Shown here in pieces: positions 10,474 to 24,959 of a stretch of 64,000 nucleotides of DNA. The DNA comes from Mesorhizobium sp. (GTDB lineage Bacteria; Pseudomonadota; Alphaproteobacteria; Rhizobiales; Rhizobiaceae), in NCBI GenBank assembly GCA_004020545.1, contig SAQE01000011.1, positions 1-64,000 of the forward strand, read 5' to 3'. The notes under the pieces are model-generated. The model ran no database searches, was not told where the DNA came from, and was given only the letters and a program-made list of their open reading frames with translations. The position numbers were made by a program, and so were the translations under genes. The first letter of the stretch is position 1; each line of letters starts with the position of its first letter.

Positions 10474-10563
10474 TGGCGGAGGGAGTGGGATTCGAACCCA
10501 CGGTGAACTCGCGCCCACGCCGGTTTTCAAGACCGGTGCCTTAAACCGCTCGGCCATCCCTCC
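10474..10563 (-). tRNA. tRNA-Ser(TGA), interrupted target of an integrative element
   Basis: A 90-base class II tRNA read on the minus strand: 5' acceptor GGAGGGA (10563 down to 10557), anticodon loop CTTGAAA with anticodon TGA (10529-10527), a long variable arm, the T-loop GGTTCGAATCC, 3' acceptor TCCCTCC, discriminator G and an encoded CCA (10476-10474). The 5' half, nucleotides 1-43 including the anticodon, is duplicated at 24748-24792. So the present gene is a hybrid of chromosomal 3' half and element-supplied 5' half. Confidence 0.95.
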
Positions 10564-10565
10564 AA
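10521..10565. other. attachment site, left (attL), inside tRNA-Ser
   Basis: 45 bp identical to 24748-24792. It covers the tRNA from nucleotide 43 back through the anticodon and D arm to nucleotide 1, plus two bases of leader. Crossover probably takes place in the anticodon stem-loop. The base on the left side differs between copies (C at 10520, G at 24747), which fixes the boundary. Confidence 0.93.
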
Positions 10566-10617
10566 GCCTTGTTTTCGTTAGCTTTTTTGGCGTTTTGCGC
10601 TAGGCCATTTGGGGCCG

Positions 10618-10640
10618 TTGCTACCATTTTGCTACCGAAC
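10618..10640. repeat. subterminal direct repeat, left copy (candidate integrase arm site)
   Basis: A 23-bp sequence containing TTGCTACC twice, separated by three bases (TTGCTACCATTTTGCTACCG is its first part). An exact copy lies at 24613-24635 near the other end. Being inside both ends, with an internal tandem octamer, suggests arm-type integrase binding sites. The left copy sits just downstream of the integrase stop codon. Confidence 0.7.
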
Positions 10641-10644
10641 GTGC

Positions 10645-11832
10645 TCAGCTACCGGGCTTTACCGCGCTCCTGATCGCTGCGTCAACCGCCTCGGCGGCAT
10701 CGGCCTGCATTCCCGGCATGACGTGCGAATATAGGTCGAGCGTGATGCCGATCGTCGAATGACCTAAGCGCTCGCTGGCGACCTTTGGATGGACGCCGGC
10801 CGATAGCATCTGAGAGGCATGGGTATGGCGCAGGTCGTGGAATCGAATGCGGGGCAACTTTGTCTTGCCGAGCACGCGAATCCATTCGTGCGTCAGCGAT
10901 CGGGGCTGAAGCGGCTGGCCGTCGACCTGCGCGACGACGAAGCTGTCAGCTTCGGGACGAATGCCAAGCTTGAGCTGTTCCTCCGCCTGACGAGTGCGGT
11001 GCGCCTTCAACTCGGCGACGGTAGCGGCCGATAGTGCTACGGTTCTGGCCCTGCCTGACTTCGGTTCTTTGTAGCGCACGCCGTCATTTGTCTGTTCGGC
11101 GCTTTCGACGATCGACAGTAGGCGTAGGTTGTCGCCAAGCTCCACATGGCGCCAGCGCAACGCAAGGATCTCGCCGCGGCGCAGGCCGCACTTCACCGCC
11201 AACAGCATGGGGATGAACATGCGGGTTAGGCGAAGCTCTTCAATGAGCTGCGCGGTCTGTGCCGCATCGTAGGCGAGCATCTTCTTGCGCTCTACCTTCG
11301 GCGGCGTCGTGGCCGTTGCAGGGTTCCTAGACAGCCGATCCCATGTCACCGCCTGACCCAATGCCTTGATGAGGACGCGCCGGAAGTGGTGAACGGTTCT
11401 AGGCGCCAAGGGAGGCAGTGGCTTGAGCTCTTCGCCTTCCTTGCGTTTCCGGTGATCGGTGCGCGGCTTCGTCAGCGCATCCGTGAAGGCAGCGTCGATC
11501 TTGTCTGTCTTCAGCTTCGCAAGGATGACGGCGCCGATGAGGGGCACCAGTCCCTTCCGGCATATCTCAGCGTACCGCTCGAAGGTCTTTGGCGCGACCG
11601 ACGGCTTGATGAAGGTCAGCCATTCGTCAAGGAACTCGGCGACAGTCTGCCTCGTCGGTTCGACGTAAGTGCCGTGTTTCATTTCGGTAATGAGCCGAGC
11701 GCATTCCTCTTGCGCTCCGCGCTTCGTGCCGCTGAAGCTGTGCCATTTCCGGCGCCGCTTGCCTGCCTCGTCGTAGAGATCGAGAACAATGGCCCATTTG
11801 CCGGGGCTGCGTTCGGTGATGTGGCCCTTCAT
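10645..11832 (-). CDS. tyrosine-type site-specific integrase
   Basis: A 395-residue phage-type integrase. N-terminal arm-binding AP2-like domain (residues 1-50), SAM-like core-binding domain (about 60-170), then the catalytic domain with Arg218 (CGLRRGE), Lys258, His332 and Arg335 (HDLRHTH), His358 (LGHS) and the nucleophile Tyr368 (LYSH). All catalytic residues are present, so it should be active. It catalyses integration and excision at tRNA-Ser. The start overlaps the stop of the upstream regulator by four bases (ATGA). The C-terminus points at the tRNA, so read-through could transcribe the tRNA. Confidence 0.95.
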   Translation of the reverse strand: MKGHITERSPGKWAIVLDLYDEAGKRRRKWHSFSGTKRGAQEECARLITEMKHGTYVEPTRQTVAEFLDEWLTFIKPSVAPKTFERYAEICRKGLVPLIGAVILAKLKTDKIDAAFTDALTKPRTDHRKRKEGEELKPLPPLAPRTVHHFRRVLIKALGQAVTWDRLSRNPATATTPPKVERKKMLAYDAAQTAQLIEELRLTRMFIPMLLAVKCGLRRGEILALRWRHVELGDNLRLLSIVESAEQTNDGVRYKEPKSGRARTVALSAATVAELKAHRTRQAEEQLKLGIRPEADSFVVAQVDGQPLQPRSLTHEWIRVLGKTKLPRIRFHDLRHTHASQMLSAGVHPKVASERLGHSTIGITLDLYSHVMPGMQADAAEAVDAAIRSAVKPGS

Positions 11833-12446
11833 TTCGGATCCTTCCTCCGCTTGAGATCATCGGCCATCTTCAAGAGATCGTCGCGACCTGTCTTCGAGCG
11901 CGCGGCAACGTGGCCGATCTCGTCTTTGATCAGCCGCAGCTTGTGTTCATACCGCGTCCCCTTGTTGATCGGCGCTGAAGGGTCGGCGTCCTGAATTTCA
12001 AGCCATAGGGCGCTGGAAACGAAATCCTGCGTGTAGGCGAGAACGGCGTCGATGTCGCTCGGCGATGGACCTTTGATGTTTGGCCGCGGGTCGCCTTCAG
12101 GTCGCACGGCTTCCAACAGTCGGTTGATCGTCTTGACGGCGTTGTCAAACCAGGCCGGATCACTAAGCCAATTCCCGAGGCCCGCGGTGCCGACGCCACT
12201 CCATTGAACCGCCAAGGCGATAGTCCTCATCATCATGTAGGTCTGACTGTCTCCAAAGTTGTCAGCAATCTTTTCGTCATCAGAAAAAGTTCGGCGTAGC
12301 CGTCTCTGAATCTCGTCGGACAAGGTGCCGCCTCGAGCCGCTGCGGCCTTCTCAAGCTCGGCCTTCAACTCCGGGGCCATGCGCGATGAAAACACCACGG
12401 AGGGCCCGGGAAATTGTGTCTTGGGCTTCGGTCCGCGCTTAGCCAC
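11829..12446 (-). CDS. Arc-like (ribbon-helix-helix) regulator, putative
   Basis: About 205 residues. I choose the GTG at 12446 because AGGAG lies about eight bases upstream; the frame is open further to 12485. The N-terminus KRGPKPKTQFPGPSVVFSSRMAPELKAELEKAAAARGGTLSDEIQRRL looks like a basic arm plus a ribbon-helix-helix DNA-binding unit. The rest is helical and unknown. It overlaps the integrase start by four bases and is divergent from the excisionase-like gene, so it probably represses the element's early genes and itself. Family assignment is moderate. Confidence 0.7.
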   Translation of the reverse strand: MAKRGPKPKTQFPGPSVVFSSRMAPELKAELEKAAAARGGTLSDEIQRRLRRTFSDDEKIADNFGDSQTYMMMRTIALAVQWSGVGTAGLGNWLSDPAWFDNAVKTINRLLEAVRPEGDPRPNIKGPSPSDIDAVLAYTQDFVSSALWLEIQDADPSAPINKGTRYEHKLRLIKDEIGHVAARSKTGRDDLLKMADDLKRRKDPK

Positions 12447-12468
12447 GAATGCCTGCTCCTGAATTAAT

Positions 12469-12537
12469 CTTACAATTTGTCGCATAGGCCTATGGACCGC
12501 GTCAAGTACGCGCCCGTATTATCTTACACATTGTAAG
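12469..12537. promoter_or_regulatory. divergent control region with a CTTACA operator-like palindrome
   Basis: The perfect palindrome CTTACA-CAT-TGTAAG lies at 12523-12537, and a related half-site CTTACAATTTGT at 12469-12480. They sit between the outward-facing regulator (minus) and the excisionase-like gene (plus), 21 bases before the latter's ATG. Best read as binding sites for the RHH-type regulator or the excisionase. Confidence 0.65.
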
Positions 12538-12557
12538 CCAGAAAGGGGCTACACGGT

Positions 12558-12746
12558 ATGTCTGAACTACCCGAAATTCTCGTCATGACCGTTCCTGAAG
12601 CCGGTGCGAAGCTCGGCTTGGGCAGGAACGCCTCATATGAAGCCGCGGCGCGCGGCGACATCCCGACGATCAGGATCGGCAAACTGATCAAGGTGCCGAA
12701 GGCTGCTTTCGAGCGGATGCTCGCGAAGTCGGGGGAGGCCGCATAA
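12558..12746 (+). CDS. excisionase / AlpA-like helix-turn-helix protein
   Basis: A 62-residue MerR-like winged HTH of the excisionase family. MTVPEAGAKLGLGRNASYEA forms the helix-turn-helix and RIGKLIKVPKAAFERMLA the wing and C-terminal helix. Ribosome binding site GAAAGGGG. Such proteins bend attachment-site DNA to direct excision or act as activators in satellites. It is divergent from the RHH regulator and first in the rightward early operon. Confidence 0.85.
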   Translation: MSELPEILVMTVPEAGAKLGLGRNASYEAAARGDIPTIRIGKLIKVPKAAFERMLAKSGEAA

Positions 12747-12771
12747 TGCAAGCCGAGATAACGACGTGAAA

Positions 12772-12793
12772 CCGCCGCGATGGTGCGCGGCGG
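12772..12793. repeat. hairpin after the excisionase gene
   Basis: Perfect 8-bp stem CCGCCGCG / CGCGGCGG with an ATGGTG loop, 26 bases past the stop codon. No T-tract follows, so it may attenuate rather than terminate transcription. Confidence 0.45.
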
Positions 12794-12894
12794 CTCGGGT
12801 GGGATTTGGGTGTTCGGAAGTGCCCGGAAAATAGTCCTGCCCTGCCAACGCGTCAACCAGCGTGCGGTTTCTTCAATTGCAAGGAGAAATCGAC

Positions 12895-13071
12895 ATGTCA
12901 GCCAACTATCGCATTGCCGTCACCTGGCGCGGGCCGGGAAACGTCCGCCAGGACCAGACGGAAACCGTCAACGGCCTTTCGCAAATCTCCGAAGTGCTCG
13001 GCAGGGGACCGGACGGCTGGACCGTCGCATATGTGACGATCACCGAACTGACCAGCCGCAGGGGTGGCTGA
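12895..13071 (+). CDS. small hypothetical element protein (58 aa)
   Basis: MSANYRIAVTWRGPGNVRQD and onward, ending TITELTSRRGG. The start at 12895 has a strong ribosome binding site (AAGGAG, about eight bases upstream); an earlier ATG at 12862 lacks one. The protein is predicted all-beta with alternating polar and hydrophobic residues. No family recognised. It abuts the next gene (TGAGATG) and is probably co-translated. Confidence 0.65.
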   Translation: MSANYRIAVTWRGPGNVRQDQTETVNGLSQISEVLGRGPDGWTVAYVTITELTSRRGG

Positions 13072-13072
13072 G

Positions 13073-13366
13073 ATGGACGCGACCCCTGAAGTCGAAACCG
13101 TGGCGGTTGACGCCGATGAACTCGACGGCGTCGCCGACAATCTCCTCGATATCGAGTGCAATGCGGAGGAAATCGTCGAAGCCCTCACCCGGCTGCGCGC
13201 AGAGGCGACGATCGCCTTCGGCGGCCGCGGCTACGAATGGCGGGCAAAGCTGCCGCCTGATCTTCGCGATCTAATCGATGAGATCGAGGCGCTGGCTGGC
13301 GAGACCCAGTCCGACGCCAATTACGCCTGGCGCCGCCTGCGCAAGCTGCAAAGGGACAGCGGATGA
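13073..13366 (+). CDS. small acidic hypothetical element protein
   Basis: About 97 residues starting at the ATG 13073, one base after the previous stop codon; a GTG three codons earlier (13064) is possible. The N-terminal half is very acidic (VAVDADELDGVADNLLDIEC) and the C-terminal half is helical with YAWRRLRKLQRD. No domain recognised. It lies in the early operon between the excisionase and primase genes. An acidic DNA-mimic-like composition is notable but proves nothing. Confidence 0.6.
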   Translation: MDATPEVETVAVDADELDGVADNLLDIECNAEEIVEALTRLRAEATIAFGGRGYEWRAKLPPDLRDLIDEIEALAGETQSDANYAWRRLRKLQRDSG

Positions 13367-13436
13367 CCGGCGATGCCGGCTCCGATACGGCGTCGCCCTT
13401 TTCCAACCTCCAAAAACTGAAAAAGGAAACACGCAA

Positions 13437-14094
13437 ATGAACAATATTCCCGCCAGAAAGCAGAACTCGAACCCTGCTCTTGCCGGTATCGACGCCTACG
13501 AGGCTTTTGCCGACCAGGCCATTGGCATTGACGCCCAGCCTCGTCAAGTTCGTGCGCGGCGTCTGGTCAACCGGCACGGACAACGAGAAGATCGACGCCA
13601 ATGCCCGATTCCTGGCCGTGGTGACCGGCCTGCGGCACGGCCACATCAAATGGGAGGACGGCCAACCGGTCGATCGCCGCATGGTGCCGGTGCAGGACCA
13701 TCCGCTGCCGCCGGCCCGCACCGATCTCGGCGACCTCGACGAGACCGAGTGGCCGATCGGCAAGGACGGTGCACCCGCCGATCCCTGGCAATTCACCTTC
13801 GAACTGCCGCTGCTCGATCTCGAAAACTCAGCGCAGCGGCTTTATTCGACCCCGTCCTTCGGCGGCCGTCAGGCGATCGGCCGGCTGGCGCGGACCTATG
13901 CGCTACGCAAGAAGAAAGATCCCGGAAAATTGCCGGTCGTCGAGTTGGCCTGCGAAAGCTACAAGCACGCAACTTACGGCGTGGTCCAGAACCCGGTTTT
14001 GAAGATCGTCGACTGGCTCCCCGATCCAGACTGGTCGCCGCCGGAACCGCCGCCCGACGCATCGTCCGATCTCAATGATGAGATTCCGTTCTAG
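13437..14094 (+). pseudogene. conserved element protein split by a frameshift
   Basis: The ATG at 13437 has a ribosome binding site (AAAAGGAA) and reads MNNIPARKQNSNPALAGIDA then YEAFADQAIG. Near 13520-13535 coding sense moves to another frame, continuing TPSLVKFVRGVWSTGTDNEK to the stop at 14094 and ending SSDLNDEIPF. Both parts have good codon use and join into one protein of about 218 residues. No slippery heptamer is visible at the junction, so a sequencing error or a real one-base indel is more likely than programmed frameshifting. The part after the shift alone is about 190 residues. Function unknown; it directly precedes the primase-helicase gene. Confidence 0.65.
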
Positions 14095-14109
14095 GGAACG
14101 GAGGATGAT

Positions 14110-16239
14110 GTGGACGCGACTGCAAGTTCAAGCAGCACCATCCGCACCGAAACCGGGTCCGGTTCGGACCCGGTCGACAGGACGGCGATCGGCGACTTCC
14201 TTACCCTGCTGCACGAGCACGCCGCCGCCGCCCTGGAAGGCGTGGCAATGCCGGGCGTGCTGAACCTCTGCCGCTTCCTGCCCGACCGCGGCCTCGACGC
14301 CGTATTCCGCTTCCCGGTCGGCGACATTTCCGGCATGGCCGGCCAGGCGGTCGCCGATGCGCAGGCAGGCTTCAATGTCTATGTCGAGGGCCGCACCGTC
14401 CGGCGGGGACTCGGCCGCAAGGTGCGCGGGTCCGCCGCCGATACGGTCGGCGTCTTCGCCCTTGTCGTCGACAGCGACGCCGACAAGGGCAGGACCGGGC
14501 AAAGCCGGCTGGCGCCGTCGCTCACCGTCGAGACCTCGCCCGGCAATTGCCACCAATGGTTGTTTCTCGATCACGCCGTCGGTCACGCGGAGGCCGGCGC
14601 ACTCGGCGACGCCATGCGGCTTGCCGGCGGCGACAGCGCAACCGGCAAGCCCGACCAGCCTTACCGGGTCGCCGGGACGCCGAACTACCCGGACCAGCGC
14701 AAGCGCGAGCGTGGACGATGCACCTGCCGGACGCGCATCCTCTCCGCGTCGGGCGCCGTCTACGGCGCCGCGGCTCTGCGCAAGGCATATCCCCCCTCGG
14801 CAGGCTCGGAAGCCGGAAACGCCGGCGACGACGACGAAGACCTTTCGATCGACGAGCTTCTTGCCTTCCTTGATCCGAGGCTCAGGGACGACATCACGCG
14901 AGCGCCGGAACCGGGCGACGACCGCTCGGCGCGCGCCTTCAGCGTCATCATGCGGCTCATCCTGGAGGGCTTCAGCGACCGCGCCATAGCCAGGATCTTC
15001 GCGGCGCACCCGGACGGCATCGGTCAGCGCTATCAACGCAACGGCAAGGATCTCGGCGCCGACATCGCCCGCGCCCGCCGAAAGGCCAGCCAGCACCAGG
15101 ACGACCAGCCTGGCGCTGGCCAGGACAAGCAAGATCAGGCGCCGGGCGTGCGGCTGCTCAACTGGCACGAATACCGGCAGCGGCATGGCCACCAGGGCGG
15201 CACCTTCCTGATTAAGGAGCTGGTGCGCGCCGGCACGCTGATCTCCGTCAACGGCCGGCCCGGTGCCTGCAAAACCGCGCTGCTGCTCGAACTGGCCCGC
15301 TGCCTCGACGCCGGCGCACCGTTTCTCGACCGGGAAACGAAACCGAGCGTCGTCGTCTACATCGCCACCGAGGACGAGGCCGACATCGTCAACCGCCTGG
15401 AGGCGCTCGAACTCGACGGCGTGATGATCGTCGCCTCGGAGGAAGGCGTGCCATTGACGAAGCCCGACAAAGCCGCCGCCGTCATCAGGGAAGTGATCCG
15501 CCAGACGCGCGAAAGATTTCCGGGCCGGGAGATATTCATCCCGTTCGATACACTGCGCGCCGGCCTCGACGGGCAATCCGTGCTCGACGACCGCTTCACC
15601 AGCCCGGCGCTCAACAAGCTCAGAAAACTCGCCGAGGATGAAGGCGTCGTCATCTGCGTCGTCAATCATACCAACCGCGAGAACCCGAAGCAGACCAAGG
15701 GCGAAACCCTGGAAAGCGCGGTGGCGCTGGAACTGATCCTGCTTGAGGGAGAAGGCGGCTGGTTCGAACTGCATGTCGGCAAGAACCGGTCGGGGCCGCC
15801 GCGCCGGCAGATCGGCCGTCTGCGCTGCGCCTCGATCCAGGTCGGCGACGTCGAGGCGGCGATCATCGACCAGATCGAAAGCGTCGACGGCAGAGCCGCC
15901 GCCGAAAAGCCGCGCAAGCCGGGCGACAGCCAGGCGCTCATCCTGACCATCATGAGGAACGCCGTCCTCGATCATGGCTTTCCGTTCCGGCCCTATCCAG
16001 ACGGGCCGCAGGTGAAGGCGGTCAAGGAAACGCTGCTGCGCGAAACCTTCATCGAGCGGAAGGCCGGCGACGATCGCGATAACAAGCGCCGCAGCTTCGT
16101 GTCGGCGCTCAACCGGCTGCTCAACCGAACCCTGATGCGCGGGGAAAATACCGTGGGTGAAGGCGTCGTCTGGTTCGCCCGGAAGGACGACGAAACCGGA
16201 AACTTTGAAGGTTTCCGGTCAGCCGGGAGGGAAGCTTGA
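14110..16239 (+). CDS. primase-helicase fusion (RepB-like primase + RepA-like AAA ATPase)
   Basis: A 709-residue replication initiator. The N-terminal half (about 60-225) matches a RepB/archaeo-eukaryotic primase fold: DSD at 121-123, ETSPGNCHQW at 141-150 and PYRVAGTPNYP at 184-194 are the expected catalytic motifs. The C-terminal half (about 345-610) is a RecA-like hexameric helicase: Walker A is GRPGACKT (382-389), with YIATEDE and ICVVNHTNREN further on. Cys387 stands where glycine is normal in Walker A. A winged-helix-like tail follows. Start GTG at 14110 with GGAGGA just upstream. It would replicate the excised element. Confidence 0.85.
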   Translation: MDATASSSSTIRTETGSGSDPVDRTAIGDFLTLLHEHAAAALEGVAMPGVLNLCRFLPDRGLDAVFRFPVGDISGMAGQAVADAQAGFNVYVEGRTVRRGLGRKVRGSAADTVGVFALVVDSDADKGRTGQSRLAPSLTVETSPGNCHQWLFLDHAVGHAEAGALGDAMRLAGGDSATGKPDQPYRVAGTPNYPDQRKRERGRCTCRTRILSASGAVYGAAALRKAYPPSAGSEAGNAGDDDEDLSIDELLAFLDPRLRDDITRAPEPGDDRSARAFSVIMRLILEGFSDRAIARIFAAHPDGIGQRYQRNGKDLGADIARARRKASQHQDDQPGAGQDKQDQAPGVRLLNWHEYRQRHGHQGGTFLIKELVRAGTLISVNGRPGACKTALLLELARCLDAGAPFLDRETKPSVVVYIATEDEADIVNRLEALELDGVMIVASEEGVPLTKPDKAAAVIREVIRQTRERFPGREIFIPFDTLRAGLDGQSVLDDRFTSPALNKLRKLAEDEGVVICVVNHTNRENPKQTKGETLESAVALELILLEGEGGWFELHVGKNRSGPPRRQIGRLRCASIQVGDVEAAIIDQIESVDGRAAAEKPRKPGDSQALILTIMRNAVLDHGFPFRPYPDGPQVKAVKETLLRETFIERKAGDDRDNKRRSFVSALNRLLNRTLMRGENTVGEGVVWFARKDDETGNFEGFRSAGREA

Positions 16240-16346
16240 AAAACCGGACCGGAAACATTCCCCATCCAAGCTTCTTTCCGATATTTCCGGTTCTTCCGGA
16301 AACCGGAAACATCGGGGGATATAGGAACCTTTCCGATGTTTCCGGT
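16195..16346. repeat. cluster of ACCGGAAAC repeats, candidate replication origin
   Basis: The 9-mer ACCGGAAAC occurs at 16195-16203, 16248-16256 and 16302-16310. Its inverse GTTTCCGGT occurs at 16211-16219 and 16338-16346, with a one-mismatch copy at 16283-16291. The first pair forms a palindrome around seven bases. Two 17-bp direct repeats (16275-16291 and 16330-16346) differ at one base. The array overlaps the last codons of the primase-helicase gene and the intergenic space behind it, a position typical of iteron origins of phage satellites and plasmids. Confidence 0.7.
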
Positions 16347-16382
16347 CTGGTTTTGTTCACTCTCTCCAACGCGTGAAAAACG

Positions 16383-16793
16383 GTGGAAACCCGGGCCGCC
16401 ATCCGCCGAGCCGCCGCCATCCTTGCCGCGTCGCCCGACAGTGACGCGCGATCGGTCGGCGAGGCGCTTAAGGAGGCGCTGGCCGGCGACGATGGCCGGC
16501 TACAGACGTTCGGCCTGCGGCTGGATCAATCTACGGCCTCGCGTCTCGGCCGTCGCGACGAGGAACTGCGCGCTGCGGCTACTGCGTTCGGCCTCGACGC
16601 GGTGCAACTCGCCGAAATGCTCAGCCGCTATTTCGCCGCCGGCTGGCAACGCGAGAGCGGCTTATCCGAATGCCCGGCAGCGCGTATCGGCAAGGTTGAG
16701 CAGCACCTGTGGGCGGCGCTGAAGGCATGGCCACGTCCGGTGCACGAGCGACAATTGCGAAATGTTCTTCGCGGCAATGACGGCCGGTTTTAA
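16383..16793 (+). CDS. hypothetical element protein
   Basis: 136 residues from a GTG start without a clear ribosome binding site. It is Ala/Arg/Leu-rich and mostly helical (AIRRAAAILAASPDSDARSV). No family recognised. It follows the repeat cluster, in the same direction as the primase-helicase. Confidence 0.5.
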   Translation: METRAAIRRAAAILAASPDSDARSVGEALKEALAGDDGRLQTFGLRLDQSTASRLGRRDEELRAAATAFGLDAVQLAEMLSRYFAAGWQRESGLSECPAARIGKVEQHLWAALKAWPRPVHERQLRNVLRGNDGRF

Positions 16794-16848
16794 TTGCCGC
16801 GGCTTTCGATGACGATCCGATCGGAACACAATCGGGAGCGCTTCGGAA

Positions 16849-17889
16849 ATGGCAATCACCGTCGGCACCGGCGATCTCTACAGCGACGTGCGCGCTGTTG
16901 CACGGCGCAAGCTGTCGGCGGCCAGCGCCGCCTTTGTCAACACCATGGTGGCGCAGGCTGAGGATCACCGCGCCCTTTGGCAGTCGGCCAACGACAAACA
17001 ATCGAAGTTGCTGGCCCGCCTCCAGGAGGTCGAGGTTCGGCACGAACACATCCAGCGCCAAATCGACCATGGCTACACCCGTGTCGAGACGTTGGTCGAC
17101 GGAAACCAGATCAGCGCCGTCGTTAAGCTGCCGGCGAATGCACCGGAGGTCTTGGCTATCCGCAAAGAGTTGGCCGAGGCGCAGGCTGAATGGGAAAAGC
17201 AAACCGCCGTCGCCAACGAGCGCGGCAGCGTGGTGCGGTCCCATGAGCAACTGTTGCAATCGCTTGGAAAATATCTCGATCAGGTCGAGACCAAGCTCGA
17301 AGACGCGCCGGAAGCCAAGCCGCCAAAGAAGGCCGACGTATCGCTCCCGGCGATTGAAGCGAAGCGCGCCGAGATCGGTGTCTTGAAGGCGGCGCTCGAC
17401 GCGAACATGGCGGCGCCGGTTGCTACCGGTCAGCGCAAGAAGGAGGCGGCCGAGCTGGTGGCGCGCCTGGCCAGCGACGGTATCCCGCGCCTCGACATGG
17501 CGGCCGGCACGTTGCCCTTCGAATTTCCGCTGCTCACCATCAACCATACAGCCGTGGGAGCCGTGCCCGGTGGCCGCGAAGTCGTAACCACCAATGGCCG
17601 CGTCCACGTCCCGAATGCGATCGCTGTGCTGTGCTGGTTGTTTCCCGAATCGATGCTGGCGGCCATCCAAAAGGAAATCGACCTCGCCGGCGACGATGCG
17701 GCTGCGGTCGATGATGAGACGAGGGCCAAGCGTGACACCGAGATCATGGCGCAGATCCTCGAAGCTGAGCGCGAGGAGGAAATGTTGATCCGCGCGGCCC
17801 TATCCGCAGGGCTGACGATCCAGCGCAGGCCCGGTGCTGACGTGCGCGCGGTGTTGGCGATCGACGGTCCCCATCCTGCGAAACTGTGA
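16849..17889 (+). CDS. hypothetical coiled-coil element protein
   Basis: 346 residues. Residues about 35-190 are heptad-rich with long helices (LLARLQEVEVRHEHIQRQID; VLAIRKELAEAQAEWEKQ) and predicted coiled coil. Residues 190-290 are mixed alpha/beta with LPFEFPLLTINHTAVG, and the C-terminus is acidic. The second half has a short hydrophobic patch (AIAVLCWLFPESMLAAI) but no true membrane segment. Role unknown; by position it could be a structural or packaging-interference protein of the satellite. A ribosome binding site (GGAGCG) is about 10 bases upstream. Confidence 0.6.
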   Translation: MAITVGTGDLYSDVRAVARRKLSAASAAFVNTMVAQAEDHRALWQSANDKQSKLLARLQEVEVRHEHIQRQIDHGYTRVETLVDGNQISAVVKLPANAPEVLAIRKELAEAQAEWEKQTAVANERGSVVRSHEQLLQSLGKYLDQVETKLEDAPEAKPPKKADVSLPAIEAKRAEIGVLKAALDANMAAPVATGQRKKEAAELVARLASDGIPRLDMAAGTLPFEFPLLTINHTAVGAVPGGREVVTTNGRVHVPNAIAVLCWLFPESMLAAIQKEIDLAGDDAAAVDDETRAKRDTEIMAQILEAEREEEMLIRAALSAGLTIQRRPGADVRAVLAIDGPHPAKL

Positions 17890-17901
17890 AGGAGCGCACC
17901 A

Positions 17902-18159
17902 ATGAGCATGGCCTCAGAGATATACGCGAAGCGCCGCCGCGACCGCGCCGCCTACCAGCTCGGCGGCGCACCGCAGCCCGAGCCCGACGAGGCACCGAGC
18001 CCGGCACCAGCGGCCGACACGTTCGGCAAGATGCTGATTTACACCATGGAGAGCGAGGCGAGGACCAGCAACACCATGCCCGATGCGAAAGCCATCTTTG
18101 CCAAGCGGGCGGCACGGCGGGCGGCTTGGCCGGCAGGCTCGGGGGAGACGGAAGAATGA
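17902..18159 (+). CDS. small hypothetical element protein (85 aa)
   Basis: Starts MSMASEIYAKRRRDRAAYQL with a strong ribosome binding site (GAAGGAG), 12 bases after the coiled-coil gene. It has a basic N-terminus, a Pro/Glu-rich linker and a second basic segment with KAIFAKRAARRAAW. The two AK-R-ARR-A pieces look like an internal repeat (EIYAKRRRDRAAY and AIFAKRAARRAAW). No function assigned. Confidence 0.6.
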   Translation: MSMASEIYAKRRRDRAAYQLGGAPQPEPDEAPSPAPAADTFGKMLIYTMESEARTSNTMPDAKAIFAKRAARRAAWPAGSGETEE

Positions 18160-18364
18160 TGGACGGCGGGAACTCGCGAGGTGGAGCCGTCCGTCGTCGC
18201 TGGCCGGGTGGAGGGTGGCCCGCCCTGATCCGGCCGGCGGCTACCTACCCCGTCAGTAGGTTCCTTTTGCCGAGGCCAAACCTTATGCGGGGCGGCGCAG
18301 CCCGGAGGACGCGCGTTTTTGCGATTTCGAAATTTGCGTTTCGCTTCGCATTGGAGGCTGCTGA

Positions 18365-18835
18365 ATGACAGCCTTGGATACGCGAACCATAGCGAGGCTG
18401 ATTGACGTGACCCCGCGCCGTCTTCAGCAGCTCGCCCACGGGGGCTGGATCGAGCCGGCGGGGCGCGGGCAGTGGCCGCTTGTGCCAACCGTGCAGGGCT
18501 ACCTTCGATTTTTGAGGTCGCGCATAGGCGCGGAGAAGCCGTCGGCCGCAGCGCTTCACGACGCCAAGGCGCAGGAAATCGAGCAAAGGCTTCGTCGGCA
18601 GGATCGCGACTTGGTGACCATGGCAGAGGCCGCAGGCACCATCACGGAGGTCGGCGGCTTGTTCGAGGAAGCAATTCGCCGCCTGCCGCGCCGGATCTCC
18701 AAAGGCTCGCGCGAACGGCAGCGGCTTGCGGCCATTTGCGAATCGGAAGCCGACCGACTGGCTAGCCGTAACCGGCAAACGCTGGCCGCTTTGAAAACCG
18801 GGCGCGCCGACGACGAAACCGAGGAGGAGGACTGA
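18365..18835 (+). CDS. Nu1-like terminase small subunit
   Basis: 156 residues. The N-terminal winged helix-turn-helix (TRTIARLIDVTPRRLQQLAH, followed by GWIEPAGRGQWPLVPTVQGY) is typical of lambda Nu1-type small terminases. The C-terminal half is helical (oligomerisation). An acidic tail (DDETEEED) ends the protein. Small terminases recognise packaging sites on DNA. In a satellite this subunit redirects helper phage packaging. No large terminase subunit is present in the element, which fits that role. It is translationally linked to the next gene. Confidence 0.75.
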   Translation: MTALDTRTIARLIDVTPRRLQQLAHGGWIEPAGRGQWPLVPTVQGYLRFLRSRIGAEKPSAAALHDAKAQEIEQRLRRQDRDLVTMAEAAGTITEVGGLFEEAIRRLPRRISKGSRERQRLAAICESEADRLASRNRQTLAALKTGRADDETEEED

Positions 18836-18838
18836 ACC

Positions 18839-19348
18839 TTGGCGATCGTGGATCAGTTTGGCAGGCCGCTCCGGCGATACGCCCGACGGTCAGATGCCGA
18901 CCTCGACGCCGAAGTCGCGCAAGAACTCCGCGCCGAGCAGGCTAGGCGGAGGGCAACGACTTGTCCCGAAATTGCCGACAATGAGGCGGTAGCGGCCGAA
19001 GAGACCGTTTCGGCGGCCGAGCACGAGCGCGCATGTGCGGCGGCGCGGGTGATGGCCTATTCTCAGGCCTACGCCGAGGGCTTGGCCGAGGGAAAGAAAG
19101 CCGGTGCCGCTGCCGTCGACAAGCACTTTCTGGACATCATCAATGGCTGCCGGGGCGATGACGACAAGCTATTGGCCGCGCTCGCCATCGCAACTGAATT
19201 TCCGGAAATCACGGCGGTCGTCTGCGTCGGCATGGCCGAACGGCACTTCGCCGGCCATCGCCGCGGCGCGGCGGCGCTCGCCAATCGCGCGGCATTGCCC
19301 GACTCGCTGGCCTTGGCCAAAGCGCAACTACAGGCAGAAGGAGCCTGA
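18839..19348 (+). CDS. hypothetical protein, phage-like start
   Basis: 169 residues from a TTG start (18839) placed nine bases after GAGGAGGAGG, which ends the previous gene. The first residues, MAIVDQFGRPLRRYARRSDA, resemble the N-terminus of Mu-type portal proteins, but the rest (helical, Ala/Glu-rich, with AIATEFPEITAVVCVGMAER) does not. It is probably an unrelated element protein coupled to the terminase small subunit. Function unknown. Confidence 0.55.
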   Translation: MAIVDQFGRPLRRYARRSDADLDAEVAQELRAEQARRRATTCPEIADNEAVAAEETVSAAEHERACAAARVMAYSQAYAEGLAEGKKAGAAAVDKHFLDIINGCRGDDDKLLAALAIATEFPEITAVVCVGMAERHFAGHRRGAAALANRAALPDSLALAKAQLQAEGA

Positions 19349-19378
19349 CCATGGCAGAACGCAACGGCGATCGCCGTC

Positions 19379-20827
19379 CTAGCCCCCGTTGCCACCCGGC
19401 TGCGTCCTCGGCCCGAGGATCAACTCGCGATCGATCTTGAGCGGGTCCAGATACTGGGGGAACTCGAGCAAGACATCGATCAGGAACCGCAGCATGTCGG
19501 CCGCGGCCTTGCGTTCCGAGGCGTACCGCTCGTCCTCGGGCGCAAGCAGTTGCTTTTTGGATTTCTTTGCGTCGAGGCCGTGCACAATTCGCGACCGGAC
19601 ATCGTAGATATTCTTCACAGCGGCAGATACGTCGGTCGGCTTCATGCTTCCGCTCAGGGATGCGAGGGCCCCCGCCCGTATTCGCAGTTTGTAAGAGAGG
19701 GCCTGGTTTTCCTTGTCGCCGAGAAGCACCTCGATGCCTATGGTAGCGTCCAAGATCGCATCAACGGCATCGTCACGGGTCATGCAGGCGTTGAGGCGCT
19801 TGAGGGCTATCAAGACACGCTCCTCTCGTCGTTCTAAAATTCGGTTGTAGATCCGCTTGACGTCATCGAGCTGCGTTCTCGTAATTGCGGACTGTCCGCC
19901 TCCGGACCAGCCGTAGTTGTCAAAGGAGTTTGGGTACCGGCGGCAATTGGCACCGTAGACTGACGGAAGGTCGCAATAGAATTCCGTCGCCCAGCCACGC
20001 GGCAGAAAAAGGACCTGTGCATATCCGGTAACGGCTCCCGTCGCCGCTCTGAGGCTGGCCATAAACCGGTCAACCGTGTCTAGCGCGTCGCCTGAGGGCT
20101 CGTTTAAGCCGTTGCGCACGTTCTGCAGCGACTTGTTAGGAATGGACCAGCCATTCGACACGAAAGCATGGGTCGCCGCCGACACCACCCCTCGCTCGGC
20201 ACCTGAACCCCGACTGCCGATACGCGAGCGTGACAGCTGCGTCGCGCGAGGAATTCGGGCGATGTAGGTTGTTTCGTTCAGCCGGTATCGGTCGACTTGG
20301 AAGTGCGTCAAGGCGATCGGCACAACGAGGCGAACCTCAAGGCTGTCTTCCACTGTCCCGAAGAATGCTAACTTCAGGATATCTTGGCGCTTCCTCTTCT
20401 GTACCGGCCCGGTTCCGTACAACTGAAAGTACCGCTCGACGCAATCGCCGACCATTCGGTCGACGTAAGATTCGGAATAAGGCTCCTCCAATTGGAACTT
20501 CTTGCCCAACTCGTTCGACTTTAGGAACTCAATGAGTTCGGCGCCCGCAGGAAAATTCTCCTGCAGCCTCTCAGACATCAAGAGGCCAGCAAGTGAACGG
20601 GGTCGGAACACGCCGACGTAATCCTTCCGTGCCTTCTCGTTGTAAAAGCCAACCTCGCTGAAATAAGGAAACCCGCTCTCCGTCATGCCCATCGTTGGGT
20701 AGTCGTGATGCGTCCCGAAAGACCACCTAGTGTCGTCCAACGTCTTGATCACCGCAGCATGCAACTCGTCGAATGCTCCTTCTAAGAGCTTTGCGTACTT
20801 GCGTAGGTCTGGCTCTTGATTGGTCAT
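19379..20827 (-). CDS. HEPN (Apea-like) domain protein, candidate abortive-infection factor
   Basis: 482 residues. The C-terminal region (about 330-460) fits an Apea-like HEPN domain: AILDATIGIEVLLGDKENQA, then the RNase signature Arg411-x4-His416 (RSRIVHG), then long helices. The N-terminal 300 residues are unassigned. HEPN proteins with Rx4-6H are often ribonucleases in anti-phage or toxin systems. The gene runs against its neighbours, and its base composition is more AT-rich than the early element genes, as expected for exchangeable cargo. No antitoxin-like partner lies beside it. Confidence 0.7.
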   Translation of the reverse strand: MTNQEPDLRKYAKLLEGAFDELHAAVIKTLDDTRWSFGTHHDYPTMGMTESGFPYFSEVGFYNEKARKDYVGVFRPRSLAGLLMSERLQENFPAGAELIEFLKSNELGKKFQLEEPYSESYVDRMVGDCVERYFQLYGTGPVQKRKRQDILKLAFFGTVEDSLEVRLVVPIALTHFQVDRYRLNETTYIARIPRATQLSRSRIGSRGSGAERGVVSAATHAFVSNGWSIPNKSLQNVRNGLNEPSGDALDTVDRFMASLRAATGAVTGYAQVLFLPRGWATEFYCDLPSVYGANCRRYPNSFDNYGWSGGGQSAITRTQLDDVKRIYNRILERREERVLIALKRLNACMTRDDAVDAILDATIGIEVLLGDKENQALSYKLRIRAGALASLSGSMKPTDVSAAVKNIYDVRSRIVHGLDAKKSKKQLLAPEDERYASERKAAADMLRFLIDVLLEFPQYLDPLKIDRELILGPRTQPGGNGG

Positions 20828-21017
20828 TTTGGACTCGCGGTCGGAAGACTTTCATCTAAGCTTTAATCGACTTGCATCCTTTAGGATGGGCAAAAGAGAA
20901 TAACCAGTGGGTTCGGGGGGCGCAAAAAGTTGCCCGGGTCGCCGCCCGGCGGGGCCTCCCATGGACAGAATTTTTTCTACCTCAAATCGACCAGCTGTCC
21001 CTGTCTGCCATGCTTTG

Positions 21018-21042
21018 AGCCCGGCCATTGAGCCGGGCTTTT
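21018..21042 (+). terminator. rho-independent terminator in the element
   Basis: Stem AGCCCGGC / GCCGGGCT with a CATTGA loop, followed by TTTT. Oriented for rightward transcription, although no rightward gene lies just before it. The 190 bases before it (20828-21017) hold no gene. Confidence 0.7.
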
Positions 21043-21084
21043 CATTGTGCTTCGATGTTGCAGGGAAAAGGGCGGGTTAACACG

Positions 21085-21390
21085 ATGCCGATAGATCGAA
21101 AACTAGAAGCGAAGTTAGACAGAATAGGTGAGTGGCTAGCCATCGCGCTTCTCATCTTGATCGTAGTCGGCGGCACCTGGGGCGTTGTATGGCTCTATCA
21201 GAACGGGTGGTTTGCGTCCGGATTCAAAATTCTCATTGCGCTTCTGATAGGCAGCGGCCTGGCGTCGATCCGCTTTGGCGTGCTCGGCATTGGTCTTTTG
21301 CTCATGGCATTGGCCGGGCTCATGTTCGGGCCGTTCGGATTGCTTGCCGGTCTCTTGCTGACAATCGTCCTGTTACTGGCCAGACGCTAA
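21085..21390 (+). CDS. small membrane protein of the element
   Basis: 101 residues with about three hydrophobic helices: IGEWLAIALLILIVVGGTW, FKILIALLIGSGLASI and LGIGLLLMALAGLMFGPFG with a further C-terminal one. A short charged N-terminus (MPIDRKLEAKLDR) precedes. I use the ATG at 21085, with AAAAGGGCGG upstream. An earlier in-frame start (21028) is possible. It could be a holin-like or defence-associated membrane protein; nothing decides between these. Confidence 0.55.
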   Translation: MPIDRKLEAKLDRIGEWLAIALLILIVVGGTWGVVWLYQNGWFASGFKILIALLIGSGLASIRFGVLGIGLLLMALAGLMFGPFGLLAGLLLTIVLLLARR

Positions 21391-21423
21391 AGCCTGCTGT
21401 CTAGGAGGTTTTTCCCCTCGGTC

Positions 21424-21774
21424 ATGGAAAAATCGAAGCGCATAGGCGGCCGACCACCGCACAAGCCGAATCAAGCGCGACGCCAGATCGTCGAGTTTTT
21501 GGCCGGCGCCGCGATATCACAGGCGGAAATCTGCGCCGTTCTCGGGATCGATCGCAAGACGTTGCGCCGGCATTATCGGCGCGAACTGGACCGCGTCGCG
21601 GCGCGCGTCGAGACCGAGCTTGTCGGCGACCTTCTGCGAATTGCCGGCGGCAATGACGGTACAGCGCTGAAGGCCGTCATTTTCGCGCTCCGGTCTTGCT
21701 TCGGATGGAGCGAATTCGCGCCGCCGCGCGCCCGCAAGATGTTATTCAAGGTTGACGACCATATATATCGGTAG
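21424..21774 (+). CDS. phage terminase-associated HTH protein (GRPPHKP family)
   Basis: 116 residues. The order GRPPHKPNQARRQIVEFLAG, ISQAEICAVLGIDRKTLRRHYRRELD, then an Ala/Val-rich helix and FALRSCFGWSEF matches a family common in prophages of Alphaproteobacteria, usually encoded just before the terminase genes. AGGAGG lies 14 bases before the ATG, which is long. It supports phage relatedness of the element. Confidence 0.65.
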   Translation: MEKSKRIGGRPPHKPNQARRQIVEFLAGAAISQAEICAVLGIDRKTLRRHYRRELDRVAARVETELVGDLLRIAGGNDGTALKAVIFALRSCFGWSEFAPPRARKMLFKVDDHIYR

Positions 21775-21823
21775 CGCTTACAACGCTCGCGTGCCAATTT
21801 TCGCGAGTTCCGGGGATGATTCG

Positions 21824-22573
21824 GTGAACGAAAAATTACCAAAAAGACTGAAGTCGGATGCGATTCTTGAAGCGGTAATGGAAATACGTTTTGAGCCCGA
21901 TCCCTCTCTGGTTTCCGAGATCATTTTTGGCCGTTTTGCTGATGTCGATGAGTGGCGTGATTTCAGGCAGGCTCGACTTCCCACCGCCGATATCCCAGCG
22001 CCGATCCGGCGTGCAGACCCCAATTTCCGATACCAGCCTTCAATTGAGATGGCATCGGCCGATGGAGGGGTAGCCGTTCGCATTGGCCCTCAAGTTGTGA
22101 TGTACGCACAACGCGGGAGCTATCCCGGTTGGGACAAATTCGGTGCAGAGCTGGATAAGGTAATAACTCGTCTTTACCGGATTATTCCGAAAGTTCAGGT
22201 AAGTAGAATTGGCCTACGATACATCAATGCGCTGCGATCAGACGCTCACGAGGTCAAGGGCATTGATGATTTGGCTATCGGAGTTTCGGTTGCGGACCAG
22301 AAGCTGTCGAACAGCCTTAACCTAAACTTTAAGACCAACGTCGGCACCGATTACGAGACAATGTGTCGGATCGCAACGGTCGATCTGGCCGCAGGAAATA
22401 TACCAGAAGGCGCTACGGTGATTGTCGATATCGATGTGTACACGGGGGAGAACTATTCAACGAAGGACGCCGAGTCGGTGAAACACTGGGTCATTCAAGC
22501 GCACGATAAGGAGAAGGAAAACTTCTTCTTGGTACTTGGAAAGGAAGCGACGGCGAGGCTCCGGGAGGACTAA
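21824..22573 (+). CDS. TIGR04255 family protein
   Basis: About 249 residues from a GTG at 21824 (GGGGA upstream); the frame is open from 21752, overlapping the previous gene. The N-terminus LPKRLKSDAILEAVMEIRFE, the middle VSRIGLRYINAL and the C-terminal HDKEKENFFLVLG agree with TIGR04255, a sporadically distributed family of unknown function. It heads a tight three-gene operon, followed directly by TAA-ATG. The operon looks like horizontally moved cargo and a possible defence module. Confidence 0.7.
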   Translation: MNEKLPKRLKSDAILEAVMEIRFEPDPSLVSEIIFGRFADVDEWRDFRQARLPTADIPAPIRRADPNFRYQPSIEMASADGGVAVRIGPQVVMYAQRGSYPGWDKFGAELDKVITRLYRIIPKVQVSRIGLRYINALRSDAHEVKGIDDLAIGVSVADQKLSNSLNLNFKTNVGTDYETMCRIATVDLAAGNIPEGATVIVDIDVYTGENYSTKDAESVKHWVIQAHDKEKENFFLVLGKEATARLRED

Positions 22574-23146
22574 ATGACGGCGGCAAATAGAACGTCCGCA
22601 ACTCGCCCGATATTGGACGAGTGGGTGGAGAGATATGACAGACGTCTTGCCAAGTTGGAGAGGCGATACCTTCAACTGGCTGCTCATATGGCACAGAAGG
22701 CGTTAGGCAATGAGGTTCGGATTGAGCCTTACACCCCATACATCAACGCGCCTAATAGTTGGCTGCCGGTGCTGGAGGCCAGAATTAGAGATTCAATTTT
22801 TCCTGGAGAGGATGAGGGCGAGATATCGACGGAATGGCTCACCGAAGACGCGGCCAATGCTGCGATCGCGTTCTTTCGGACAGGAGCCGATTTGCTGCCA
22901 ACGGAACCGCATATCTACGCGACCAAGTCTGGAGATTTGGTCGCAGAATTTGAAACGCCAGCCGGGAGCATGACCGGCATCGTTTCTGACAACAAAACGA
23001 TATTGTTCGCGGTCTTGGCGACAAATCCACATGAACCGATCCAGAGTGTAATTCGCCGGGGTAGCAACCGATTTAGAGACGAACTCAGATCGTTCACACG
23101 AAAGCTGACCCCGAGTTCGCATGGCAAGATGGCAGCCCCAAGATAA
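22574..23146 (+). CDS. hypothetical partner of the TIGR04255 protein
   Basis: 190 residues. Its ATG directly follows the stop of the TIGR04255 gene and GGGAGGA precedes it, so the two are co-translated. A helical N-terminus (EWVERYDRRLAKLERRYLQL) is followed by a beta-rich centre (HIYATKSGDLVAEFETPAGS) that could form a sandwich. No domain recognised. It overlaps the next gene by 26 bases. Confidence 0.6.
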   Translation: MTAANRTSATRPILDEWVERYDRRLAKLERRYLQLAAHMAQKALGNEVRIEPYTPYINAPNSWLPVLEARIRDSIFPGEDEGEISTEWLTEDAANAAIAFFRTGADLLPTEPHIYATKSGDLVAEFETPAGSMTGIVSDNKTILFAVLATNPHEPIQSVIRRGSNRFRDELRSFTRKLTPSSHGKMAAPR

Positions 23147-23672
23147 GGTCGGACTTAACGAGCAGATTGGCCGTCGAATGTTCGATGAGCCGCTGCTTAA
23201 GGGGGCCGTCAGTCAGCCTGCGTTTGCCGGTATTTCTATCAACCATTTTATCGAGAAGCGCGGCGATGAAATTTCGCTCGACCGGATGGGTGCGAGTGGA
23301 CTCGACCGTAAGGTTGTAAAATATCTCTTGCCGCGAGCCATCGCGCACGGGCAAAGCTTTGGAAGGCCTCAACGGTTCGACGGTTGGGCGATCGTGGCGG
23401 CGAAAGAGTTGATGCAAGCGCGCGTCGGCCGAAAAGTCCCGGTGATTCCGTCACCGATCACTGACCAGGAACCGAACGACAACATCTATCACGCGCATGT
23501 AGTCAGGTCGGAGGGATTAGACCCATACGAGATGGCTTTGCATCTGCGCTATATCTTCCTGCAATTCGGAAAGATCGAGCAAAACAAGCCCGACGAGGAA
23601 ACGTGGTTCAGCCGACTTCGAGTGCACCCTGTCGCGCGCTGGCTTATTGCTCTACTTCCGGGCCGGAGCTAA
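23121..23672 (+). CDS. hypothetical third gene of the TIGR04255 operon
   Basis: 183 residues, overlapping the upstream gene by 26 bases. Reads MARWQPQDKVGLNEQIGRRM and onward. It is basic overall, with HAHVVRSEGLDPYEMALHLR in the middle. No catalytic motif or membrane segment is evident. The tight overlaps suggest the three products act together. Confidence 0.55.
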   Translation: MARWQPQDKVGLNEQIGRRMFDEPLLKGAVSQPAFAGISINHFIEKRGDEISLDRMGASGLDRKVVKYLLPRAIAHGQSFGRPQRFDGWAIVAAKELMQARVGRKVPVIPSPITDQEPNDNIYHAHVVRSEGLDPYEMALHLRYIFLQFGKIEQNKPDEETWFSRLRVHPVARWLIALLPGRS

Positions 23673-23772
23673 TCCTCCCGAAGCGCCGGCGAGGCCGCGT
23701 CCCACCCGAGCGCGCCAGAATAGCGGCCCGCTGGCGCGCGATCAGGCCGGGCAAGGGGCAATGTGCTCCCGG

Positions 23773-24111
23773 CTATTCGCCGCCGTTCCTTGGCCGCCTG
23801 CGCGCCGCTAATCCCCAAAGCGCCGCGAGATCGTCAAGGCTGGCACGCAGATTGTCGACCATCGTCAGACGGCCGCGCTTGTTGCCTGTGACTTCGGTCA
23901 ACGAGTGATCCTGTCCGATAAGAGATACCACAAGCCGGTAGTGGCGATCGCCGAGCAAGGCACGCGCGGCCGCAAGCTCGAAATAGAGTGCACGGAACTT
24001 CGCGGCGGCTGCGATCTGGTTTTCGGTAAGACATTTGCGGGCGGCTAATTCAGTGACGGCTTCGCCGGCCGGGAGCGGTTCGGGCGTGGAAACGTTCAAG
24101 AGAGCCGGCAT
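23773..24111 (-). CDS. small protein resembling DUF6456
   Basis: 112 residues on the minus strand. AAAAKFRALYFELAAARALL, the HYRLVVSLIGQDHSLTEVTG stretch and the C-terminal LRASLDDLAALWGL follow the layout of DUF6456-type domains found in phage and rhizobial proteins. Function unknown. It lies opposite to the TIGR04255 operon, near the right end of the element. Confidence 0.5.
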   Translation of the reverse strand: MPALLNVSTPEPLPAGEAVTELAARKCLTENQIAAAAKFRALYFELAAARALLGDRHYRLVVSLIGQDHSLTEVTGNKRGRLTMVDNLRASLDDLAALWGLAARRRPRNGGE

Positions 24112-24363
24112 GAGATGGAGTCCATCGGATAACGGCGGGGAGTGGCGACGACATGGGCGCGGATGATGCCACGACGGCGGGGAAAACGAAAAGCCGATTT
24201 TGCCCCAGATTTTCCCCCGACCGATTCGAGGGCGGCGCGGATGGCCACTAGATTATTTCCACAGGGACCGATCGCCCAGCTTCGAAATTTCGAACCGTCG
24301 ACCTCGAAATCACCATCCTCAAAAGCCTCGTCGCCGACATAAAGGCCGTATGAGGAATGCGTC

Positions 24364-24642
24364 ATGAAGGATGATCCCATACTCATCCCGACAGGCTGCG
24401 GCAGCTATGTGCGGGCATCGATCTCGCTGGCCGAACTACTGCGCCGCTACGATCTCGCCGACGCCCCACAGGATGATGACGAGGGAAGCGGTGATCGCCG
24501 CCTTCGCCCTGAAACTGCTCAGGACAGGAGGCTAAGCATTTTTGGGCCCCCCGCTGCCAATGGTGGCGGGCTGCTTGTCAGTACATGTCAGCGAGAACGC
24601 ACAGTGAACAGATTGCTACCATTTTGCTACCGAACTCGGTAG
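24364..24642 (+). CDS. small hypothetical protein at the element's right end
   Basis: 92 residues; GAGGA lies about eight bases before the ATG. The first 40 residues (MKDDPILIPTGCGSYVRASI, then LAELLRRYDLADAP) look like real protein; the rest, running into the right-end repeats, looks random. Possibly a truncated gene. The 250 bases before it hold no convincing gene. Confidence 0.35.
   Translation: MKDDPILIPTGCGSYVRASISLAELLRRYDLADAPQDDDEGSGDRRLRPETAQDRRLSIFGPPAANGGGLLVSTCQRERTVNRLLPFCYRTR
24613..24635. repeat. subterminal direct repeat, right copy
   Basis: Exact copy of 10618-10640. Here the tandem TTGCTACC units are followed after ACTC by the inverted GGTAGC, forming a small palindrome. 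It lies 112 bases inside the right attachment site. Confidence 0.7.
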
Positions 24643-24747
24643 CACGGAGCGCGATAGGCCGGGACGCAATGAACAGCAGAGAGGCCGGAAGCCTTGAAAA
24701 ACAAGGACTGCGCAGGACAAGACAGGGCAGGGCGGGACGCCAGCAAG

Positions 24748-24792
24748 CGGTTTTCAAGACCGGTGCCTTAAACCGCTCGGCCATCCCTCCAA
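24748..24792. other. attachment site, right (attR): displaced 5' half of tRNA-Ser
   Basis: A 45-bp copy of tRNA-Ser nucleotides 1-43 plus two leader bases, lacking the 3' half, so not a functional tRNA. It marks the right end of the integrated element and the junction with the remnant of a second element. Confidence 0.93.
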
Positions 24793-24863: not shown

Positions 24864-24959
24864 CTATTTGGCTTTCCGTTCGCTGCTTATAGCTGCCTGC
24901 AACGCGGCGTCAACTTGCTCGGCCGGATCTGCCTGCATTCCCGGCATGACGTGTGAATA
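24864..24959 (-). pseudogene. C-terminal remnant of a second tyrosine integrase
   Basis: Read on the minus strand, 24959-24864 gives YSHVMPGMQADPAEQVDAAL, then QAAISSERKAK and a stop. It aligns with the end of the intact integrase (YSHVMPGMQADAAEAVDAAI) but differs at several residues, so it is from a related, not identical, element. It begins at the catalytic tyrosine; homology stops abruptly at 24960. It sits behind the right att site as the intact integrase sits behind the left one. Confidence 0.85.

Follow-up and report, generated by a model that had tools for sequence, protein, structure and literature searches.

A probable phage satellite in a Mesorhizobium tRNA-Ser gene and related islands marked by the protein g9

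Phage satellites shape phage defense and gene transfer. The criteria for phage-inducible chromosomal islands (PICIs) exclude structural genes (PMC6092414). For the PICI-like elements (PLEs) of Vibrio cholerae, one report describes a satellite-encoded tape-measure protein (TMP) that enters PLE virions to give chimeric tails, and a ∼99.9% drop in PLE11 transduction upon deletion of tmp (PMC12987554); the legend of its Extended Data Fig. 10 lists both PLE-like elements and capsid-forming PICIs (cf-PICIs) as having putative tmp genes. Our search of the literature, which left out bioRxiv and most subscription papers, found no description of satellites in rhizobia. Here we analyze a 64-kb stretch of DNA from the root-nodule bacterium Mesorhizobium sp. 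(contig SAQE01000011.1, positions 1 to 64,000; hereafter the window), which contains a 14.2-kb element at 10521..24792. We read this element, with a probability of roughly 0.7, as an integrated phage satellite of a family marked by a protein that we call g9, its induction and packaging being predicted from sequence.

The element is bounded by two exact 45-bp repeats that lie 14,227 bp apart; at this length, the window has no further exact repeat. The core of the attachment (att) site is the 5′ half of a tRNA-Ser(TGA) gene, with the anticodon inside the left copy; because the intact tRNA stands at the integrase end, the island is placed upstream of the tRNA. Within both ends lie exactly matching doublets of TTGCTACC, which are probably the arm sites of the integrase, and similar doublets are found in L039, an island of another genome that occupies the same tRNA. 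We note that the doublets were absent from the earlier account of this DNA. An empty site occurs in another genome (G047, locus L185), where tRNA-Ser is joined directly to the sequence that begins after the right att of the window; against the two joined window pieces, 232/260 positions are identical (91/92 in the tRNA stretch, 141/168 in the flank). The spacing between the tRNA and rlpA is 16,021 bp in the window versus 329−6039 bp in 20 relatives (15/20 <1 kb), these being the genomes whose upstream stretch was fetched among 87 with a match to the rlpA region; the tRNA is on the opposite strand in 3/20 (L184, L196, L197). The closest relative by right flank (G011, 96%) has an integrase end like that of the window (572 bp, 85%) beside its tRNA. 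Outside the right att, a 57-bp piece at 24903-24959 is similar to the end of the integrase gene, and it probably marks an earlier insertion event because its flank also neighbors the tRNA in other genomes, directly in G002 and G047 and at a distance of ∼4 kb in G011.

Pfam and PHROG scans covered 20 open reading frames (ORFs) of the element, and statements about its gene content refer to these. The original prediction had described matching ends, an integrase, divergent regulators, a primase-helicase, and genes of the terminase small subunit (TerS) type, with no structural or conjugation genes, and had likened the whole to a PICI. The ends, the integrase, and the 709-aa primase/ATPase-like gene are borne out (Table 1), as are the divergent regulators in the form of a weakly Arc-like 218-aa gene and a 62-aa HTH_17 gene. 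No ORF matched a family of the terminase large subunit (TerL), portal, capsid, or other structural proteins; no TMP was found, the gene after g12 being cargo, and no relaxase or other conjugation family, the mark of integrative conjugative or mobilizable elements (ICEs/IMEs), was matched. The terminase claim stands for one gene and falls for a second, at 21424-21774, whose match is to phrog_12540 and which reaches terminase families only at E 0.016−0.065.

Like PICIs (SaPI/EcCI), the element is ∼14 kb long (the PICI range is ∼12−15 kb), uses a tRNA att site, and encodes an integrase, an AlpA-like regulator, primase-type replication, and a TerS with no TerL detected; the master regulator is recognized by its helix-turn-helix (HTH) match only. 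Taken alone, the element fits the PICI criteria that can be checked in a sequence, leaving aside PICI-exclusive genes and the rule that prophages never occupy the att sites; the tRNA-Ser site hosts more than one island type. The g9 family differs from PICIs in its mark and in relatives that carry a TMP, a protease or, once, a portal, and because these are structural genes we do not file it as PICI. The satellite half of the earlier interpretation is kept on the strength of the gene plan, the tRNA att, the TerS without detected TerL, the related islands elsewhere in the order, and the empty site, and strict PICI membership is given up. Several g9 relatives, like PLEs (PMC12987554), carry a TMP gene of their own, but the hosts differ, the window has a TerS and no TMP, and the comparison is with PLEs as described. 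With cf-PICIs the family shares small size and a partial virion gene set, some cf-PICIs having a putative tmp according to the same source (PMC12987554); unlike cf-PICIs, the window element has no match to a capsid, portal, or TerL family, and a head module is unseen. The element belongs to the g9 family by having g9 linked to a tyrosine integrase on an island of small size, and this family is itself proposed from the present data.

The identity of the TerS is supported by tblastn matches to five phage records (E 1e-7 to 2e-4), of which three carry a terminase annotation, and by a 150-aa alignment at 33% identity with the protein directly before TerL in a prophage of G116, where the TerS-like protein is followed by a phrog_15 TerL (E 8.5e-155) and a portal. 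Homologous TerS (33−35%) links the element to lambda-type siphovirus prophages (G116 and G051 C45, the latter also with a related TMP), which differ from it in carrying TerS-TerL-portal-protease and the full packaging and head genes. A pattern scan of viral contigs with the window TerS gave 18 stretches, none confirmed. A second phrog_57 match in the element's own genome (C162:20711-20911) was set aside as weak, and its region, L046, has no match to element proteins.

Islands that bear TMP first surfaced through matches to the integrase, TerS, and g9. The order Hyphomicrobiales was then surveyed with a g9 profile (window, L039, and L040), chosen to avoid selection on TMP or TerS. The profile matched 15/397 genomes including the element's own, and 22 other rows resolve to 19 places in 14 genomes. 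All 19 places were fetched and mapped with a custom ORF caller and iterated hidden Markov models (HMMs). An integrase is labeled at 18/19, with L138 the exception and L143 having it in two pieces. TerS (phrog_57, E <1e-17) is present at 9/19, with weak matches (E >1e-4) in L139 and L144; TMP at 8/19 (L129, L130, L132, L136, L138, L143, L145, L147), with a 90-aa TMP piece at the stretch edge in L146; and a head-maturation protease at 5/19 (L135, L138, L140, L142, L147). Of TerS, TMP, protease, and TerL, one or more occurs at 14/19; a phrog_21 portal occurs at 0/19. Two phrog_21 matches (G446 C16, G225) were rejected as portals, since they cover profile positions 560-787 and coincide with the protease genes, whereas the portals of the six prophages align to positions 8-554. 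A stop interrupts the g9 match of L140, and gene calling there left g9 out. The genome G322 holds five related g9 islands (L129−L133) at different places, with g9 identities of 85−90% among L129, L132, and L133; because these copies are close kin, the 19 places are not independent cases.

The g9 of the element, and in part its g8 and TerS, recur together in other islands of the order. L039 is a 13.0-kb island with a 39-bp exact att pair and, in addition, a TMP. Among 30 loci tested, 18, with the window among them, have an exact repeat of ≥15 bp anchored on a tRNA and spanning 7.1−18.5 kb, those of L133 and L141 being weak at only 15 bp; the tRNAs include Ser, Lys, Phe, Val, Gln, Asp, Asn, Met, Ala, and Arg.

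The order g9-TerS-TMP is common, not fixed. It appears as g9-x-TerS-TMP in L129, L130, and L132, as g9-TerS-protease-x-TMP in L104, and as g9-TerS-x-TMP in L106 and L040, and the TMPs in this one neighborhood have different top PHROG families (phrog_8462 in L039, phrog_28 in L129, phrog_973 in L145). We also scanned 144 ORFs of 18 att-bounded islands (set A3); among the matches listed (25 of 89 PHROG and 25 of 36 Pfam families) are TerS of phrog_57 in three and phrog_141 in two, head-maturation protease of phrog_17040 in three and phrog_53 in two, and one "major head and protease" match (phrog_4523, E 1.7e-60). The best candidate for the last is L115 14777-15490, in which 174 aa show 52% identity to a portion of a 673-aa frame of protease-capsid type in L230; at a length of 237 aa, the protein is probably protease only. 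L115 has no g9, and searches with two of its proteins gave no phage match. A 702-aa protein of L137 proved primase/RepA-like, and a 397-aa protein of L220, considered as a capsid, resembles the putative replication initiator of phage phi3LM21.

The AlphaFold model of g9 (mean predicted local distance difference test (pLDDT) score, 90) shows a long hairpin of helices, the C-terminal part being helical too, and nothing in PDB or BFVD matched it at E ≤ 0.001; the g9 profile met solved structures in coiled-coil-type chance matches alone (best E 0.027). The window protein is 34% identical over 258 aa to that of L129 and 35% to that of L039. Neither of two tblastn queries with g9 matched any of 50,697 phage records at E ≤ 0.01, and the g8 and g9 HMMs had no match in six prophage regions. 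Pattern scans of viral contigs gave four stretches for window g9, none confirmed, and no stretch for L129 g9. As g9 is located near TerS, protease, and TMP, our guess is that it might act in particle assembly or size redirection.

Candidate helpers were sought in 22 island-bearing genomes, a set that did not include those of L100, L104, L106, and L220. Matches to TerL (phrog_2, phrog_15) fall within an island solely in G277, the rest being on a different contig or at a distance of tens of kb, and a separate TerS-TerL-portal prophage is present in 6/22 (G319, G225, G196, G446, G428, G366). Island and prophage TMPs are 39% identical over 759 aa in G446, and the proteases are 45% identical over 368 aa in G428; G366 and G319 gave no comparably close match. 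The 13.8-kb contig L220 carries an integrase and g8-g9-replication initiator-x-protease-TMP-portal, and the TMP of the 65-kb prophage contig L222 is 65% identical over 796 aa to its TMP. The two contigs, which share IMG number 2842447887, presumably belong to one genome and form an apparent satellite−helper pair.

If the element is a satellite, an active helper phage would prompt its excision and its replication from its own module, and its TerS would pair with the lambda-type (phrog_15) TerL of the helper to steer satellite DNA into helper heads. The window copy may have lost a TMP, or never had one, with a cargo block of lower GC content (HEPN-like, TIGR04255) filling the slot and perhaps acting against phage. 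In many relatives, the satellite TMP beside TerS, sometimes with a capsid-type protease, may replace its helper counterpart to yield chimeric particles, a role suggested by the PLE precedent (PMC12987554). A wider account is possible, and we advance it only tentatively: an order-wide satellite family whose exchangeable TerS (DNA), protease (heads), and TMP (tails) would hijack several kinds of siphovirus to form chimeric virions, with g9 as an assembly factor of unmatched fold and the window element as a cargo-bearing branch that would leave helper tails unchanged. The g9-marked satellite family is proposed here, and for satellite-encoded TMPs the PLEs offer a precedent (PMC12987554). If true, a family with its own tape-measure gene drawn from differing TMP families would mean that tail piracy has more than one origin, and genomes that hold both an island and a prophage with related TMPs would supply tractable pairs.

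Several results weigh against the satellite reading. The family score of the window TerS is modest (phrog_57, Table 1), and its predicted fold (mean pLDDT 82) had no significant Foldseek match. A TerS profile run against solved structures gave zero terminase matches with the corrected set A7, also without L104; matches obtained with set A5 (6hn7 E 7.6e-4, 1j9i E 0.023), which held one wrong-strand row, vanished with A7, and this profile is therefore not used as evidence. Between the window and L129, neither the primases nor the integrases are detectably alike in pairwise comparison, g9 and TerS being what the two share, and a pattern search for relatives of the 709-aa primase returned 95 genome-contig and 26 viral-contig stretches, none confirmed. 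No TMP was detected in 11/19 g9 islands, and none of TerS, TMP, protease, and TerL at 5/19 (L131, L137, L141, L144 with its weak TerS, L146); TerS lies ahead of g8-g9 in L134 and after TMP in L100. Genome-wide helper searches were limited to TerL phrog_2 and phrog_15 and portal phrog_21, and the element's own assembly has no match to a phrog_15 TerL, a phrog_21 portal, or TMP profile A2; a resident helper of lambda type, as a candidate for the helper phage once predicted, was not seen. As an observation apart, that assembly (G000) contains a single short phrog_2 TerL-like stretch (C19:2373-2978), perhaps a remnant of a gene transfer agent; G062, G087, G020, and G078 have short phrog_2 matches that cover a similar part of the profile.

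The rival that survives best, although we consider it unlikely, is a decayed prophage, a siphovirus stripped of head and most tail genes that retained integrase, replication, and TerS. Phage-like order of TerS, protease, and TMP in several relatives would suit it, as would a TMP in two pieces (L124) or short at 513 aa (L114), and so would two genes that also count against a satellite: the one TerL-like protein among the 19 g9 places (L139 7177-8643, phrog_2 E 2.9e-25) and the portal of L220, the exception to portal-free islands. The original prediction had named a TerL, capsid, or conjugation gene in any close relative as contrary evidence; what appeared was this TerL and this portal, each once, and no examined island showed a complete head module. 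Decay sits poorly with five related islands at five places of one genome, with att pairs that bound islands mostly of 11−15 kb, with TMPs of different PHROG families in the same neighborhood, and with the failure of g9 to match the 50,697 phage records and of g8 and g9 to match the six prophage regions; decay should leave remnants that vary more.

Less probable again is transfer by conjugation, the element being an integrative mobilizable island or a plain genomic one whose TerS-like protein serves in replication or as a regulator that binds DNA. Conjugative elements integrated in tRNA genes are plentiful in Mesorhizobium, and the cargo genes and the unseen helper in the own genome would agree with such an island; the virion genes of the relatives argue against it, as do the 20 ORFs without a conjugation family. 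That the element is a dead satellite, once mobile and now fixed with TMP and helper gone, is very improbable: the window has no TMP and its assembly no lambda-type helper, but the integrase frame is unbroken, as are the two att copies and the two arm doublets, and the 11 g9 islands mentioned above likewise have no detected TMP.

Table 1. Features of the element and its insertion site
Feature	Position	Strand	Basis
tRNA-Ser(TGA), attachment gene	10474..10563	-	ARAGORN
att, left copy	10521..10565	.	exact 45-bp repeat
Doublet TTGCTACC-3 bp-TTGCTACC, left	10618..10640	.	23-bp exact repeat D4
Tyrosine integrase	10645..11832	-, reads toward tRNA	PF00589 E 1.3e-21; phrog_1 E 2.8e-64; 65% to L039 integrase
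Weakly Arc/CopG-like protein, 218 aa	11829..12485 (start perhaps 12398)	-	phrog_228 E 0.0028
AlpA/excisionase-like HTH_17 protein, 62 aa	12558..12746	+	PF12728 E 8.2e-8
Two small ORFs, 69 + 100 aa, no assigned function	12862..13366	+	ORF call
phrog_9528-like protein, 204 aa	13480..14094	+	E 3.8e-15
Primase/AAA-ATPase replication protein, 709 aa	14110..16239	+	AAA_25 E 1e-16; phrog_906 E 6.1e-17
g8, small gene upstream of g9	16383..16793	+	iterated HMM family; pairwise E 5e-5 to L100
g9, 346-aa hallmark protein, long helical hairpin	16849..17889	+	profile search, AlphaFold
85-aa ORF, no assigned function	17902..18159	+	ORF call
TerS-like (terminase small subunit)	18365..18835	+	phrog_57 E 8.9e-7
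g12	18839..19348	+	37% over 84 aa, pairwise E 9e-10, to gene between TerS and TMP in L034
Cargo: 482-aa protein	19379..20827	-	no family match at E ≤ 0.01
Cargo: small hydrophobic-looking ORF	21055..21390	+	ORF call
Cargo: HTH protein, phrog_12540 (unknown function)	21424..21774	+	E 5.9e-17
Cargo: TIGR04255 family protein	21752..22573	+	E 4.7e-32
Cargo: two ORFs, 190 + 183 aa, no assigned function	22574..23672	+	ORF calls, family scans
Cargo: two ORFs, 112 + 96 aa	23773..24386	-	112-aa ORF: phrog_21451 E 3.7e-16
Doublet TTGCTACC-3 bp-TTGCTACC, right	24613..24635	.	exact match to left doublet
att, right copy	24748..24792	.	exact 45-bp repeat

The GC content is 0.648 in the core of the element (12558-19348) and 0.564 in the cargo block (19379-24386), with 0.625 for the window. 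The 482-aa cargo protein has an RSRIVHG stretch, spotted by eye, which resembles the HEPN RNase motif, and it is a possible anti-phage cargo. The 218-aa weakly Arc-like protein has its top match in phrog_795 (partition ATPase, E 6e-4) and is 60% identical to L039 12271-12858. Homologues of the primase in L041, L042, L044, and L045 belong to other kinds of element by gene map and were not used.

One further protein lies near TerS in three of the G322 islands. It is 124 aa long (L130 9396-9770, L131 10811-11185, L132 10656-11030), and a 36-aa stretch of it is 56−64% identical to a 347-aa protease/head-type protein of the G446 prophage (L208 6796-7839), which suggests that it is perhaps a mimic of a head protein.

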